Assembly: GCF_015999335.1 (NCBI RefSeq)
Contig: NZ_JAEACP010000022.1
Location: 10,778 to 74,777 of the forward strand
Direction: 5' to 3'
Length of the DNA stretch: 64,000 nucleotides
Source: Tabrizicola soli
GTDB taxonomy: Bacteria > Pseudomonadota > Alphaproteobacteria > Rhodobacterales > Rhodobacteraceae
A model generated the notes under the pieces. That model was not told the DNA's origin. It made no database searches and was given only the letters and a program-made list of their open reading frames with translations. The position numbers and the translations under genes were made by a program. Positions 1,607 through 7,710 of the stretch are shown piece by piece (positions within the stretch are counted from its first letter, which is position 1; each line of letters opens with the position of its first letter).

Positions 1607-3103
1607 ATGGCGCATCGGCTGGCCGGTCGGCGGCGGTTGGCGCTTGCCTTCGGGCTGGGGGTGCTGGCGGCGCTGGGGCAGGCGCCCTGGGGCCTTTGGC
1701 CGCTGACGCTGGCGGGGCTGGCGGGGCTGGTCTGGCTGGTGGCGCGGGCGGAAGGCGCGCGGCCGGCGTTCTGGATCGGCCTCGCGGCGGGGACGGGGCA
1801 TTTCGCGCTGGCGCTGTCCTGGATCGTCGAGCCCTTCCTGATCGACATCGCCCGGCACGGCTGGATGGCGCCCTTCGCGGTCCTGTTCCTGTCGGTCGGC
1901 CTTGGCCTGTTCTGGGCGCTGGCGGCGGCGCTGGCCCGGCGCACGCGGGTTCCGGCGCTGGGTTTCGTCGCGGGTTTTACGGCGCTGGAATGGCTGCGGG
2001 GGGTGATCTTCACCGGCTTTCCCTGGGCGATGGCCGGCCATGTCTGGATCGGCACGCCCCCGGACCAGCTGGCCGCGCTGGCCGGGCCTTCCGGGCTGAG
2101 CCTGCTGGCGCTCCTGGCCGCCGCGCTGCCGGTCATGTGGCGCTGGCGGGGGCTGGCGGCCTCGGCCCTGCTGCTGGCGCTGGCCTTCGGCTTCGGCCTC
2201 TGGCGGCTGGGCCAGCCCATGCCCGAGGACCGGGCCGTGAGCCTGCGGCTGGTGCAACCCGATGCCGAGCAGTCGCTGAAATGGGACCAGGCGCTGGCGG
2301 ACGAATTCCTGGGCCGGCTCCTGGACCTGACGGCCGAGGGGACGCCCGCCGACCTGACGCTCTGGCCCGAGACGGCGGTGCCCTTCATGCTGGAATATGC
2401 GCCCATGGTCGCGGGGATGGTGACGGCGGCCTCGGGCGGGCGGCCGGTCGTGGCGGGGATCCAGCGCGAGGAGGCGGGGCGCTACTACAACAGCCTGCGC
2501 ATCCTGGAGGGCGAGGGGGTCGAGCGGGTGCGCTATGACAAGGCGCATCTGGTGCCCTTCGGCGAATACATCCCCTTCGGCGACCTGGCCTATGACTGGT
2601 TCGGCCTGCGCGCCTTTGCCGCACAGGCCGGGGCGACCTATTCGGCGGGGCCGGGGCCGATGGTGCTGGACCTCGGCGCGATGGGCAAGGTGCTGCCGCT
2701 GATCTGCTACGAGGCGATCTTCCCGCGCTTCGTCAATGCCGCGCCCGAGCGCGCGGACTGGATGCTTCAGGCCACCAACGACGCCTGGTTCGGGGTCTGG
2801 ACCGGGCCGTTCCAGCATGTCGCCCAGGCCCGGCTGCGTGCGGTGGAACAGGGCCTGCCGCTGGTCCGGGTGGCCAATACCGGGGTGACGGCAGTGGTCG
2901 ATGCGCGCGGCCGGGTGGTGGCGGCGCTGCCCTTCGGCACGATGGCGGCGCTGGACGCAGCCCTGCCGGGCGCGCTGCCGCCGACGCCCTATGCGCGCTG
3001 GGGCGACGGGCCGGTGCTGCTGTTGCTGGCGGGCCTTTCCCTGCTGTCCCTGCGCCGCCCGCGCCGCAACTCCCCCCGCAACTCCCCCCGCAACTCCCAT
3101 TGA
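1607..3103 (+). CDS. lnt: Apolipoprotein N-acyltransferase Lnt
   Basis: Inner-membrane enzyme that adds the third acyl chain to the N-terminal cysteine of lipoproteins such as Pal, encoded in this same window. The 498-residue protein has several N-terminal membrane helices, a periplasmic nitrilase domain and one C-terminal helix. The catalytic triad is visible as E255 (LWPETAVPF), K312 (YDKAHLVPFGEY) and C367 (LICYEAIFP). The ATG at 1607 follows the corC stop by one base; an upstream in-frame start at 1538 would lie inside corC and is rejected. The last residues are encoded by a 12-bp tandem repeat giving an RNSP periodicity. Confidence 0.96.
   Translation: MAHRLAGRRRLALAFGLGVLAALGQAPWGLWPLTLAGLAGLVWLVARAEGARPAFWIGLAAGTGHFALALSWIVEPFLIDIARHGWMAPFAVLFLSVGLGLFWALAAALARRTRVPALGFVAGFTALEWLRGVIFTGFPWAMAGHVWIGTPPDQLAALAGPSGLSLLALLAAALPVMWRWRGLAASALLLALAFGFGLWRLGQPMPEDRAVSLRLVQPDAEQSLKWDQALADEFLGRLLDLTAEGTPADLTLWPETAVPFMLEYAPMVAGMVTAASGGRPVVAGIQREEAGRYYNSLRILEGEGVERVRYDKAHLVPFGEYIPFGDLAYDWFGLRAFAAQAGATYSAGPGPMVLDLGAMGKVLPLICYEAIFPRFVNAAPERADWMLQATNDAWFGVWTGPFQHVAQARLRAVEQGLPLVRVANTGVTAVVDARGRVVAALPFGTMAALDAALPGALPPTPYARWGDGPVLLLLAGLSLLSLRRPRRNSPRNSPRNSH
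3065..3098 (+). repeat. 12-bp tandem repeat at the 3' end of lnt
   Basis: The unit CGCAACTCCCCC occurs at 3065-3076 and 3077-3088, with a 10-base partial third copy at 3089-3098. It is in frame and encodes a repeated Arg-Asn-Ser-Pro tail just before the lnt stop. It looks like replication slippage in a dispensable C-terminus. Confidence 0.85.
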
Positions 3104-3141
3104 CGCCCTGACCCCCGAGGTCTAGTCAGACGCATCTTGAA

Positions 3142-3187
3142 CCGCCACAACGGCTTCCTGGCGTGGCGGGGATCCCCCAACGGAGCA
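3142..3187 (+). promoter_or_regulatory. SAM/SAH riboswitch upstream of metK
   Basis: Compact aptamer matching the SAM/SAH class of Rhodobacterales. A 7-bp stem CCGCCAC (3142-3148) pairs with GTGGCGG (3163-3169) and encloses the conserved loop AACGGCTTCCTG. After a short linker comes the conserved CGGAGCA (3181-3187). In the known structure, loop bases pair with this 3' segment to form an H-type pseudoknot that buries the ribosome binding site. Here GGAG is the metK Shine-Dalgarno, 7 bases from the ATG at 3193. Ligand binding should therefore block translation of SAM synthase when SAM is plentiful. Class membership rests on sequence recall, but the match is very close. Confidence 0.92.
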
Positions 3188-3192
3188 CTTCC

Positions 3193-4359
3193 ATGAGCCG
3201 CAAAGATTACGTCTTCACTTCCGAGTCCGTCTCGGAGGGTCACCCCGACAAGGTCTGCGACCGCATTTCGGACGCCGTTCTGGACGCCTTCCTGACCGAG
3301 GAGCCGAATGCCCGCGTCGCCTGCGAGACCTTCGCCACCACCAACCGCGTGGTCGTCGGCGGCGAGGTGGGCCTGTCGTCGAAAGAGGCGACGGCGGCGA
3401 TGCTGAAGCGGGTCGACGGCATTGTCCGCGACTGCGTCAAGGACATCGGCTACGAGCAGAAGAAGTTCCACTGGGACAAGATCAAGGTCCACAACTACCT
3501 GCACGAACAGTCGGCCCATATCGCGCAGGGCGTGGACCGCGACGGGGCGGGCGACCAAGGCATCATGTTCGGCTATGCCACGACCGAGACGCCCGAGTTC
3601 ATGCCGGCGCCGATCCAGTATGCCCATGCGATCCTGCGCCGCCTGGCCGAGGCGCGCAAAACGGGCGCCGAGCCGACGCTGGGGCCGGATGCGAAAAGCC
3701 AGCTGACGCTGCGCTATGCCGATGGCAAGCCGGTGGAAGTGACCTCGATCGTGCTTTCGACCCAGCACACATCCAAGCGCCAGACCTCGAAGGTCATCCG
3801 CAAGATCGTGGAGCCCTATATCCGCGAGGTCCTGCCCGAGGGCTGGATCACGAAGAAGACCGAATGGCATGTGAACCCGACCGGGACCTTCGTGATCGGC
3901 GGGCCGGACGGCGACGCGGGGCTGACGGGGCGCAAGATCATCGTCGACACCTATGGCGGCGCGGCCCCGCATGGCGGCGGCGCGTTCAGCGGCAAGGACC
4001 CGACCAAGGTCGACCGCTCGGCCGCCTATGCGGCGCGCTATCTGGCGAAGAACGTGGTGGCGGCGGGGCTGGCGGAACGCTGCACGCTGCAGGTCAGCTA
4101 TGCGATCGGCGTGGCGAAGCCGCTCTCGATCTACGTCGACACCCATGGCACCGGGCAGGTCGAGGCCAGCCGCATCGAGAAGGCGGTGGCCGAGGTCATG
4201 GACCTGACCCCGCGCGGCATCCGCACCCATCTGGATCTGAACCGGCCGATCTACCAGCGCACGGCCGCCTACGGCCATTTCGGCCGCGCGCCCGGGGCGG
4301 ACGGCGGGTTCTCGTGGGAGCGCACCGATCTGGTCGAGGCGCTGAAGAAGGCGGTGTGA
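3193..4359 (+). CDS. metK: S-adenosylmethionine synthase
   Basis: Makes S-adenosylmethionine from methionine and ATP in the cytoplasm. The 388-residue product has the N-terminal [10 protein letters not shown] block, the signature GAGDQG (118-123) and the glycine-rich GGGAFSGKD (261-269). The start is the ATG at 3193, positioned after GGAG of the SAM/SAH riboswitch; an upstream in-frame GTG at 3163 lies inside the aptamer stem and cannot be the start. The riboswitch gives product feedback. trmB, a SAM-using tRNA methyltransferase, follows. Length and motifs are normal for the family. Confidence 0.98.
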
Positions 4360-4490: not shown

Positions 4491-5183
4491 ATGTCCGAGG
4501 CGGGCGAACACCGCAACTTCTACGGCCGCATCCACGGCAAGACGCTGCGCGCGCAGCAGAAGGCGGATCTCGAGACCGGGCTGGCGGCCCTGGCCCTGAA
4601 GGGCGTCACGCGCGAGGACAACCCCTCCCGCGCGGCCCTGGACCTGTCCTTTGCCGGCGGGCGGCCCCTGTGGCTGGAGGTCGGCTTCGGCGGCGGCGAG
4701 CATCTGGTGCACATGGCGGCCCGCAATCCCGGCATCTTCCTGATCGGCTGCGAGCCCTTCGTGAACGGGGTCGCCATGCTGCTGGGCAAGCTGCGGGACG
4801 GGAAGGTCTCCAACGTCGCGATCCACCCCGGCGACGTGCGCGACCTGTTCGACGTGCTGCCCGGCGGCTGCCTGACGAAGGTCTTCCTCAACTATCCCGA
4901 CCCCTGGCCCAAAGCCCGCCACCACCGCCGGCGCTTCGTCTCTCCCGGCTACCTTCAGGCCCTCGCCCGTGTCTGCGCGCCGGGGGCCGAGTTCCGGGTG
5001 GCCACCGACATCCCCGATTACGTGCGCCAGACGCTGGAGGAGGTTCCCGCCGCCGGGTTCGAGCTGGTGCATCAGGCGGGCGAGGGCGGGGCCTGGGAGG
5101 ACTGGCTTTCCACCCGCTACGAAAGGAAGGCGCTGCGCGAGGGCCGGGCGCCGCATTACCTGACCTTCCGGCGCGAGGGCTGA
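4491..5183 (+). CDS. trmB: tRNA (guanine-N7-)-methyltransferase
   Basis: Methylates G46 of tRNAs using S-adenosylmethionine. The 230-residue protein shows the SAM-binding block WLEVGFGGGEH (61-71), the family motif NYPDPWPKARHHRRRF starting at N134, and the C-terminal YERKALREGRAPHYLTF. The ATG at 4491 gives a normal N-terminus (NFYGRIHGK near residue 8), but there is no Shine-Dalgarno: the 28 bases upstream are a stem-loop plus CTTTCC. Lies directly downstream of metK, so supplier and user of SAM are adjacent. Confidence 0.95.
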   Translation: MSEAGEHRNFYGRIHGKTLRAQQKADLETGLAALALKGVTREDNPSRAALDLSFAGGRPLWLEVGFGGGEHLVHMAARNPGIFLIGCEPFVNGVAMLLGKLRDGKVSNVAIHPGDVRDLFDVLPGGCLTKVFLNYPDPWPKARHHRRRFVSPGYLQALARVCAPGAEFRVATDIPDYVRQTLEEVPAAGFELVHQAGEGGAWEDWLSTRYERKALREGRAPHYLTFRREG

Positions 5184-5257
5184 GACAACCGCCGCACGGC
5201 GAAATCCGGTCAGGCGGGGCTTGCCGTCCCGGCCCGGCAGCGGCTAGGCTGCCGTCA

Positions 5258-5386
5258 TCGACCGAGTGGCAACTAGGGTTCCGGGCCGATCCAGGAATGG
5301 GCCGCCGCAGGACCGAGCGTTGCAGAGACCGGGGGAGTTCCCCGGCTGCACCCAAGGGGAAAAAGCCCAGGGGAGGAGACGTCGAG
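5258..5386 (+). promoter_or_regulatory. ykkC-family riboswitch upstream of a DMT transporter
   Basis: The 238-base gap before the transporter holds the hallmarks of the ykkC aptamer superfamily (guanidine-I, ppGpp and PRPP riboswitches). The conserved CTAGGGTTCCGG is at 5273-5284, GGACCGAG at 5310-5317, and the hairpin ACCGGGG-GAGTT-CCCCGG at 5328-5345. The 3' signature AAGGGGAAAAAGCCCAGGGG at 5354-5373 resembles the consensus GGGATAAAAGCCCGGGAGA. Flanking TCGAC (5258-5262) and GTCGA (5381-5385) can close the outer stem. A small hairpin GCGCC-GACA-GGCGC follows just before the ribosome binding site and may be the expression platform. The ligand subtype cannot be settled by eye. Confidence 0.75.
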
Positions 5387-5421
5387 ATCAACCGCGCCGA
5401 CAGGCGCAGAAGGGGGTCTCA

Positions 5422-6294
5422 ATGACGCTTGCCTCGCTTTCCCTCGTCGTCCTCGCAGCCTTCATCCATGCCGGCTGGAACCTCCTGGCCAAGCGGGCCG
5501 CCCCTGTCGGGCCGGTCTTCGTCTTCGCCTACAACCTGATCTCCTGCCTCGCCTATGCGCCCTGGGTGATCTGGCTGCTGGCGCAGGGCGGCGTCGCCTG
5601 GACCCGGGCCGGGGCGGGTTTCGTCCTCGCGAGCGGGCTGATCCATCTGGCCTACAGCCTCTGCCTGCAGCGCGGCTATCAGCTCGCCGACCTGTCGGTG
5701 GTCTATCCGGTGGCGCGCGGCACCGGGCCGATGCTCTCGACCCTCGGGGCCTTCCTGATCCTGGGGGAGACCCCCAGGGCGAGCGGGCTTGCCGGGCTGG
5801 TCCTGGTGGTGGCCGGCATCCTGCTGATCGCCACGCAGGGCAGGCTGGCCGCCTTCGCCCGGCCGGGCGGGCAGGCGGGGCTCAGATGGGGCACGGCGAC
5901 CGGCGGGCTGATCGCCTGCTATACGGTGGTCGATGCCTATGCGGTCAGGGCGCTGGGCATCGCGCCGGTGGTGCTGGACTGGTTCTCGAACCTGCTGCGG
6001 TTCTTCCTGCTCTTGCCGCTGGTCCTGGCCGACCCCCGCCGCGCCGCCGAGGTGATGCGGGGGCATTGGGGGCTGGCGCTCGGCGTGGGCCTCTTGTCGC
6101 CGCTGTCCTATATCCTCGTGCTGGCGGCGCTCTCCGGCGGCGCGCCGCTCAGCCTCGTCGCGCCGATGCGCGAGATGTCGATGATGGTCGGCGCCGTGAT
6201 GGGCATGCTGATCCTGCGCGAGGCGGTCGGGCGCTGGCGGCTGGCAGGCTGCGCGGTGGTGATCGCCGGGGTGATCCTGCTGTCGCTGTCCTGA
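5422..6294 (+). CDS. EamA/DMT-family transporter (riboswitch-controlled)
   Basis: Integral membrane permease of 290 residues with about ten hydrophobic helices, two EamA repeats, and the family motif LSVVYPVARGTGPM. The ATG at 5422 follows AGAAGGGGG; upstream in-frame codons lie inside the riboswitch and are rejected. The leader resembles a ykkC-class riboswitch, whose known ligands are guanidine, ppGpp, PRPP or nucleoside diphosphates. If it is guanidine-I, a guanidine or toxic-cation export role is a reasonable inference, although known guanidine exporters are of the smaller SMR type. A paralogue with the same motif lies at 21735. Substrate is unknown. Confidence 0.85.
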   Translation: MTLASLSLVVLAAFIHAGWNLLAKRAAPVGPVFVFAYNLISCLAYAPWVIWLLAQGGVAWTRAGAGFVLASGLIHLAYSLCLQRGYQLADLSVVYPVARGTGPMLSTLGAFLILGETPRASGLAGLVLVVAGILLIATQGRLAAFARPGGQAGLRWGTATGGLIACYTVVDAYAVRALGIAPVVLDWFSNLLRFFLLLPLVLADPRRAAEVMRGHWGLALGVGLLSPLSYILVLAALSGGAPLSLVAPMREMSMMVGAVMGMLILREAVGRWRLAGCAVVIAGVILLSLS

Positions 6295-6363
6295 CCGCCG
6301 CGCCCCATGGACCGCCCCCGCCGCTTGCGCTATCAGGCGAGCCGGAATGTGAGGGAGTCCCAG

Positions 6364-7710
6364 ATGTCCGGCCATGGCGAAGCGCAACCGATGAAATCCC
6401 GCAAGTCGGGGCCCTTGCGGGGCGTGGCCGAAGTGCCGGGCGACAAGTCGATCTCGCACCGCTCGCTGATCTTCGGGGCGATGGCGGTGGGGGAGACGCG
6501 GATCACGGGCCTCCTCGAAGGGCAGGACGTGCTGGACACGGCAAAGGCGATGCGGGCCTTCGGGGCGACGGTCACGCGGCTGGGCGAGGGCGCCTGGACG
6601 GTGAACGGGGTCGGCGTCGGCGGCTTCCGCGAGCCGGAGGATGTGATCGACTGCGGCAACTCGGGCACCGGGGTGCGGCTGATCATGGGGACGATGGCGA
6701 CGGCGCCGATCACGGCGACCTTCACCGGGGACGCGAGCCTGCGCAAGCGGCCGATGGGGCGGGTGACGGACCCCCTGGCGCTGTTCGGGGCGCGGGCCTA
6801 TGGGCGGCAGGGCGGGCGGCTGCCGATGACCGTGGTCGGCGCGGCGAACCCGGTGCCGGTGCGCTATGCCCTGCCGGTGGCCTCGGCGCAGGTGAAGTCG
6901 GCGGTGCTGCTGGCGGGGCTGAATGCCCCCGGCGAGACGGTGGTGATCGAGAAGGAGCCAACGCGCGACCATTCCGAGCGGATGCTCCTGGGCTTCGGGG
7001 CGCGGTTGTCGGTGGAAAAGACCGGCGAGGGGCATGTGATCACCCTGACGGGCCAGCCGGAGTTGCGGCCGCAGACCGTGGCGGTGCCGCGCGATCCGTC
7101 CTCGGCCGCCTTTCCGGTCTGCGCGGCGCTGATCGTGGAAGGATCGGACATCACCGTGCCGGGGGTCAGCCAGAACCTGACCCGGAACGGGCTTTACCTG
7201 ACCCTTGTCGAGATGGGGGCGGAGATCGACTTCCTGAACCCGCGCGAGGAGGGGGGCGAGCCGGTGGCGGACCTCCGGGTGCGGTTCAGCGGGGAGATGA
7301 AGGGGATCGAGGTGCCGCCGGAGCGGGCGCCGTCGATGATCGACGAATATCCGGTGCTGTCGGTGGTCGCGGCCTTCGCGACCGGCAAGACGGTGATGCG
7401 CGGCGTGAAGGAGCTGCGGGTCAAGGAGAGCGACCGGATCGACGCGATGGCCAGGGGGCTGGAGGCCTGCGGCGTGCGGATCGAGGAGGACGAGGATACG
7501 CTGATCGTGCACGGCATGGGGCCGGGCGGCGTGCCGGGCGGGGCCACCTGCGCCACCCATATCGACCACCGGATCGCGATGAGCTTCCTGGTCTGCGGGC
7601 TGGCGGCCAAGGCCGAGATCGCGGTGGACGACGGCTCGCCGATCCAGACCTCGTTCCCGGTGTTCCTGCCGCTGATGAACGGGCTGGGGGCGAGCCTGAC
7701 CGCCGGATGA
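6364..7710 (+). CDS. aroA: 3-phosphoshikimate 1-carboxyvinyltransferase (EPSP synthase)
   Basis: Sixth step of the shikimate pathway, joining shikimate-3-phosphate and phosphoenolpyruvate. The 448-residue protein has the N-terminal motif [14 protein letters not shown] (from residue 23) and GNSGTGVRL near residue 100. TRDHSERML lies in the second domain, and KESDRIDAM and DHRIAMSF near the C-terminus. The ATG at 6364 is preceded by GAGGGAG; an earlier in-frame ATG at 6307 gives an atypical basic extension and is rejected. The stop overlaps the start of the next gene (ATGA), indicating translational coupling. aroA-cmk-rpsA is a common alphaproteobacterial order. Confidence 0.97.

Follow-up and report, generated by a model that had tools for sequence, protein, structure and literature searches.

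The window, a stretch of 64,000 nucleotides from Tabrizicola soli, contains a ykkC-type RNA at 5257-5421 directly before an EamA transporter gene (Table 1). Two genes before this leader lies a SAM-SAH riboswitch (RF01727, 3139-3187, + strand, 59.1 bits), which was the only Rfam match in the window at the gathering score; the frame downstream of it, ending at 4359, is presumably metK-like. The ykkC RNA was not detected by this whole-window search at the gathering score.

Table 1. Features of the leader RNA and transporter gene, with positions in the window
Feature	Position	Strand	Remarks
Promoter-like TTGCCG and TAGGCT	5221-5226 and 5245-5250	+	Predicted +1 at 5257
Leader RNA, aptamer plus expression platform	5257..5421	+	+1 predicted from promoter alignment
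P0 add-on helix, 5' strand UCGAC	5258..5262	+	AUCGAC invariant in 38 sequences; helix cells 99.5% paired
P0 add-on helix, 3' strand GUCGA	5381..5385	+	Equivalent group B helix predicted de novo, with compensatory changes
ykkC aptamer core	5262..5375	+	RF00442 39.6 bits; R2 151.2 bits
P1; P2; P3	5269-5273/5319-5323; 5329-5334/5340-5345; 5349-5370	+	Within aptamer core
Subtype marker: C where guanidine-I has A46 and the PRPP aptamer C49	5318	+	Putative mapping, from PMC6031431
CACC, as C75 A76 C77 C78 of PRPP aptamer; CACG in guanidine-I	5349..5352	+	Putative mapping, from primers in PMC6031431
G at the place of G96 in PRPP aptamer, paired with C5349	5370	+	C-G in 37/38
GAGAUC, overlaps P0 3' strand, complementary to 5415-5420	5384..5389	+	97.8% of cells paired, 38 sequences
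Platform hairpin GCGCC/GGCGC	5394..5407	+	Varies among loci
Shine-Dalgarno-like AAGGGGG and GGUCUC, adjoining start codon	5410..5420	+	
EamA/DMT transporter, 290 aa	5422..6294	+	PF00892; best NCBIfam TIGR03340 phn_DUF6

We found that the leader aligns end to end with a ykkC family model. A cmscan search of 331 nt matched RF00442 (Guanidine-I) at 5262-5375 (model positions 1-107 of 107; 39.6 bits, E 6.8e-6) and no other Rfam family up to E 10. The first-pass annotation had reported three motifs in the order and spacing of ykkC aptamers, and the full-length alignment bears this out. The covariance-model check proposed there thus gave a match, although its score is below the RF00442 gathering score of 63 bits. 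Within the leader, CTAGGGTTCCGG (5273-5284) and AAGGGGAAAAAGCCCAGGGG (5354-5373) are each present in a single copy in the window. GGACCGAG (5310-5317) is not distinctive alone, with 13 copies over both strands, and the chance expectation for CTAGGGTTCC was 0.03. A model of group A relatives (R2; the groups are described below) scored 151.2 bits at 5256-5397, the window itself being part of its training set.

The frame downstream of the leader had been called a DMT permease, and two analyses agree. The protein matches Pfam PF00892 (3.8e-15), and its AlphaFold2 model (pLDDT 90.9) matches solved DMT transporters; the predicted structure identifies it as a DMT-fold transporter. An N-terminus conserved among relatives supports the ATG at 5422 as the start. 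The top structural match by E-value was a triose-phosphate/phosphate translocator (1.2e-7). LicB had the highest query TM-score among the matches listed (0.78), followed by nucleotide-sugar transporters and 5i20. A sequence search of solved structures returned three weak matches (E 0.07-0.24; 'beta chain', NIPA2), none of them useful. The best NCBIfam model was TIGR03340 (phn_DUF6), at 125.2 bits against a cut-off of 288.15, so that by score the window protein is distinct from the phosphonate equivalog itself. All of the scanned EamA homologues (23/23) match TIGR03340.

We found that related RNAs are likewise followed by EamA genes. The window and 64 relatives make up 65 loci (46 in group A, 14 in group B and 5 actinobacterial loci in group C), and an EamA homologue is downstream in 65/65, some copies being cut by contig ends or apparently interrupted. 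The EamA start is 90-260 nt 3' of CTAGGG in 46/46 A, 14/14 B and 4/5 C loci; the fifth C locus (L207) falls outside the marker pattern of the script, and an EamA frame follows there too. A scan of an 84,980-species genome collection, with a pattern that fixes CCGAGY and CACCNAA, gave 87 matches in 86 stretches. We sorted them into 35 A, 11 B and 1 C; one more is probably due to chance, and the other 39 are of Firmicutes type, many of these upstream of purine genes. By blastn, 16 plasmid records from Paracoccus, Agrobacterium and Thioclava contain the leader; seven of them were retrieved. A phage search gave no match.

Type A RNA is rare, with at least 1 of 385 class genomes and at least 2 of 149 family genomes carrying it. 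R2 gave at least one match in the class genomes (the window's own genome) and at least four in the family genomes (two A, one B and one guanidine-type), and model R1 gave at least 12 in 398 phylum genomes (one B, two A and nine reading CCGAGA); these counts are lower bounds because few candidates were scored per genome. RF00442 matched in 31/385 class genomes and 24/149 family genomes. Among the loci retrieved, 51 were guanidine-type, and the C marker described below was found in the window, L052, L030, L053 and G082.

Some RNAs met in these searches precede other kinds of frames. A guanidine-type RNA with CCAGGG (L154, about 3004-3945, in G459; 51.9 bits) precedes a short frame that by eye resembles a decaying substrate-binding protein. 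Another (L029/L153, in G335; 41.1 bits) has CTGGGAAACG in place of CTAGGGTTCC and precedes frames that by eye resemble an ABC-transporter operon. Clostridiales bacterium DTU086 (L159/L085, L156) has a subtype-2c-like RNA before a frame that looks NUDIX-like by eye, and a second subtype-2-type RNA; both scored about 41 bits with R2.

Apart from EamA, few genes recur beside the A and B RNAs. In 52 A/B loci, compared by crude gene calls and all-against-all BLAST, EamA clustered in 47; the other recurring neighbors were generic ABC ATPases (8 loci) and three clusters of 3 loci each. aroA, which adjoins EamA in the window and is also near EamA on a Caballeronia plasmid, is not among the recurring clusters of these 52 loci. 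That plasmid, p5 of Caballeronia grimmiae (L172), is typed as conjugative; its EamA homologue shares 63% identity and is not accompanied by the RNA. R2 gave no match for the EamA homologues of five plasmids (L172-L176, 37-73% identity), and nine homologues from one family outside the class (L180-L188, 42-46%) had no ykkC match in their loci. The transporter therefore does not need the RNA.

We found a promoter-like pattern at the predicted start of the group A leaders. When 39 group A loci were aligned on AUCGAC, there was a T at -36 in 30/39, a T at -35 in 34/39, a T at -12 in 33/39, an A at -11 in 29/39 and a T at -7 in 28/39. This -35/-10 pattern is common to most of the 39 loci, and the predicted +1 is the A of AUCGAC, where the 5' strand of the P0 helix begins. 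A generic consensus scan found no promoter.

The ykkC structure with P0 fits the group A leaders well: 99.4% of cells were paired in 38 leaders, compared to 24-46% when the partners were slid. P0 is nearly invariant in group A, so covariation in that group is uninformative about it. In group B (13 sequences), RNAalifold predicts P0 de novo, with changes on both sides at 5/9 pairs (columns 2/146, 4/144, 8/139, 9/138 and 11/136). P0 formed from the aptamer ends, as in subtypes 2a and 2b, is thus present in the window at 5258-5262/5381-5385, with covariation in group B only. One EamA leader (L189, G694:C2) keeps GCCCATCCATGTGTGGC in the last ~60 nt before locus position 1501 and has no ykkC core; by eye, its P0 5' region is followed by sequence leading up to the start codon, with the aptamer core missing. 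A B carrier of the same genus (L160/L190) retains the core, and judged by this comparison L189 is a natural aptamer deletion.

The 3' strand of P0 overlaps a second complementarity. GAGAYC is complementary to GRUCUC by the start codon, with 97.8% of cells paired in 38 leaders. The changes in this competing helix are one-sided, and its covariation score was reached by 83/500 shuffles; the helix therefore shows conservation, not covariation. By energies alone, the competing fold was at least as stable as the P0 fold in 37/38 leaders, and the natural reading is an OFF state that is displaced by ligand-stabilized P0. Group C has what by eye is an analogous complement, GGACC/GGUCC or GGACCC/GGGUCY, before a GTG start. 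A search of 5150-6400 gave no terminator. Comparison of sequences supports three features: the RNA fold, P0 and the competing complementarity.

We propose the following model. Transcription from about 5257 would allow the first bases, AUCGAC, to pair with GUCGA at the 3' end of the aptamer as P0. In the absence of ligand, GAGAUC would pair with GGUCUC, which adjoins the ribosome site and start codon, and expression would be OFF. Once ligand is bound, P0 and the P3 pocket would form, with GAGAUC sequestered and the ribosome site free (ON). The leader resembles an ON switch acting on translation; we infer both the direction and the translational mode. ON behavior is published for guanidine, PRPP and ppGpp switches, and a role of P0 in the expression platform is described in the available text of PMC6031431; our model agrees with both.

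The marker bases of the aptamer are not those of guanidine-I. According to the available text of PMC6031431, guanidine contexts can be told apart from others by a single base, which is A46 in guanidine-I and a pyrimidine in 2a/2b. We infer that the equivalent of A46 is the base after CCGAG. This base was A in 49/51 and G in 2/51 guanidine-type loci and is C in the window (C5318), which, if the placement is right, is the pyrimidine of subtype 2. The base after CAC was G in 51/51 guanidine-type loci and is C in the window. The window RNA thus lacks the marker A, the G after CAC and the gathering score of guanidine-I. It keeps the PRPP-aptamer bases G48, C49, C75, A76, C77, C78 and G96 (numbering from PMC6031431 and its primers), and the purine gene context of PRPP riboswitches is absent. 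The earlier reading, a ykkC riboswitch before an EamA gene and possibly a variant ligand class, is supported; the RNA lacks the guanidine-I marker bases and carries an add-on helix. The scan pattern itself dictates C at both pocket sites in the 46 A and B loci that it retrieved. Loci identified independently of the pattern also have C at both sites: the window, L030, L052, L053 (which repeats scan locus L107), L056-L062, L149 and L160-L162.

A tree of 135 cores separated guanidine-I from A, B and Firmicutes RNAs (0.998), with clades A (0.929) and B (0.833). The guanidine-I split held (0.98) when the two marker bases were masked. When 18 columns around them were masked, the split was lost and A grouped with guanidine-I (0.996); the tree rows on both sides had been chosen with patterns that touch the masked columns. 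The case for subtype 2 therefore comes from the marker bases and P0, not from overall likeness. The tree with 18 columns masked agrees with the likeness of subtype 2d to guanidine-I described in the available text of PMC5912903.

The first-pass annotation had considered EamA an unusual partner for a ykkC RNA. This view did not hold up: the literature already pairs EamA with the orphan ykkC subtype 2d (PMC7266159, in the text available), and an EamA gene is therefore expected beside such a leader. Taking the results together, we consider it about 75% probable that the leader is a ykkC variant riboswitch, of orphan subtype 2d by its gene partner, that switches on translation of the DMT/EamA transporter.

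We found that the group C loci are tied to phosphonate genes. Five of 90 Microbacteriaceae genomes carry the C RNA, all five ahead of EamA; one C EamA protein that was compared is 41% identical to the window protein. In four of the five (G532, G923, G971 and G929), genes for PhnE-like, HpnW, HpnZ and PhnX-like proteins are within ~9 kb downstream. HpnW and HpnZ pass their NCBIfam cut-offs, as do PhnE and PhnC in G971, and the binding proteins encoded in G532 and G971 score above the cut-off for TIGR01098 (phosphate/phosphite/phosphonate), not for the PhnD equivalog. The PhnX-like protein is slightly below its cut-off (214 vs 219 bits), as are several PhnE domains. In the fifth genome (G942), PhnE is on other contigs. 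PhnE was found in 5/5 Microbacteriaceae genomes with the RNA and in 0/11 without it, the 11 being hand-picked from the other 85.

The picture in groups A and B is different in part. In one alphaproteobacterial A carrier (G794), EamA is convergent with, and no more than 25 bp from, a flavoprotein gene at the end of a locus encoding PhnE, PhnG, PhnH, PhnL, PhnM and PhnN (NCBIfam) and PhnI and PhnJ (Pfam), by gene content a C-P lyase locus. A similar locus, matched with those proteins, is on another contig of the genome that the window comes from (L214). One search covered 72 sources (66 A/B windows, with some loci present twice, 5 C loci and L214), and the other A/B sources had no phosphonate-specific gene near the RNA, most of the sources being 8 kb long or shorter. 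PhnE was not enriched in Alphaproteobacteria (4/8 genomes with the RNA vs 7/13 hand-picked genomes without it), which counts against a phosphonate reading for A and B. The link of the C loci and G794 to phosphonates is a new clue. Separately, a PPOX-type flavoprotein is encoded beside EamA and the RNA in A and B carriers (L212, 16046-16654, TIGR04025; L150, 4945-5553, PF01243); the two proteins are 42% identical.

What might the RNA sense? The pocket and P0 point to an anionic ligand, and the C loci and G794 point to phosphonate. Our tentative proposal, held with low confidence, is that the ligand could be a small anionic phosphonate-type or phosphonate-derived compound; the PRPP-like pocket bases and the phosphonate genes favor this over a guanidine-like compound. 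Stated more fully, and just as tentatively, A, B and C might be one class of riboswitches that respond to organophosphonates or to a phosphonate-derived metabolite, for example a PRPP-like phosphoribosyl-alkylphosphonate. The phosphate pocket and P0 known from PRPP/ppGpp aptamers would then be reused, and the DMT transporter switched on by these RNAs would handle phosphonates. The three groups differ in the linkers around P0, and they may read different phosphonates. A doubtful alternative is that the RNA senses a known subtype 2 nucleotide or phosphorylated sugar (PRPP, ppGpp, NDP) or a near relative, the phosphonate link being incidental. Positions 48, 49, 75-78 and 96 are those of the PRPP aptamer, the 3' linker to P0 (~12 nt) is like that of the PRPP aptamer, and triose-phosphate and nucleotide-sugar transporters are among the nearest solved folds. 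However, the 5' linker is ~6 nt compared to 2 in the PRPP aptamer, and EamA is directly downstream in 60/60 A/B loci, with no purine, amino-acid or NUDIX gene.

The masked tree slightly lowered our confidence in the variant-riboswitch explanation as a whole and raised it in two guanidine-related readings. A toxic, guanidine-like ligand, small and charged, is proposed for 2d in the available text of PMC5912903; for the window RNA we rate it rather unlikely. The transporter gene stands alone in A and B, without a conserved neighbor, and RNA and transporter are also plasmid-borne, both as for a detoxifying exporter, and the 18-column masked tree fits as well. However, the pocket bases are those that hold phosphate in PRPP/ppGpp aptamers, P0 is the helix added in those aptamers for a larger polyanion, and the C loci are tied to phosphonate genes. 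Another reading, a diverged guanidine-I riboswitch with EamA as a guanidinium exporter, is very unlikely: the scaffold is that of RF00442, EamA proteins partly match SMR models, if weakly (13/23 EbrB), and A groups with guanidine-I once the 18 marker-region columns are masked, but both marker bases differ from those of the 51 guanidine-type loci and P0 is present. Least probable of all, to the point of being far-fetched, is a protein-binding or attenuation element that keeps the ykkC fold without a ligand switch. The minimum free energy of the leader is ordinary (z -0.83) and no ligand is known for subtype 2d RNA. Against this, the loop and pocket bases are invariant over 38 loci, and one relative's leader without the aptamer core retains its EamA gene.

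Phosphonate-type compounds, the ligands that we tentatively favor, offer a practical starting point: the window locus and its 64 relatives are a data set with a concrete, cheap prediction, phosphonates first. If it is true, there would be a riboswitch for compounds with a C-P bond, and the result would point to the substrate class of an uncharacterised transporter family. In our literature search, we found no ligand report for subtype 2d since the 2020 review and no published phosphonate link of a ykkC RNA.

The window RNA fits subtype 2d by its gene partner. Subtype 2d precedes EamA ('originally called phn_DUF6') and TauE genes and is assigned no ligand in the available text of the 2020 review (PMC7266159). 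The window RNA shares with it the ykkC scaffold, the non-guanidine marker base and the downstream EamA/phn_DUF6-like gene, with TIGR03340 as the best model, below cut-off. In contrast, according to the available text of PMC5912903, the 2d consensus resembles guanidine-I most and flanking conservation is named only for 2a-2c, whereas in the window RNA the flanks are strong and P0 is present. Our groups A, B and C may correspond to the published 2d at finer resolution, or 2d may be mixed. The PRPP (2b) and ppGpp (2a) riboswitches share with the window RNA the marker pyrimidine, CACC and a P0 with a similar 3' linker, and the PRPP riboswitch also the C75-G96 pair; they differ in the 5' linker (YGAGUG in the window RNA, AG in theirs), in several bases past G99 and in gene partner. 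Guanidine-I (RF00442) has the same P1-P2-P3 fold, matches the leader at 39.6 bits and is the nearest group with 18 columns masked, but the window RNA has C rather than A at the marker, C rather than G after CAC, P0 and a score below gathering. The window protein, similarly, matches TIGR03340 phn_DUF6 and PF00892 over its whole length and has the fold of the DMT superfamily, but differs from the TIGR03340 phosphonate equivalog in its score (125 bits vs the 288-bit cut-off).
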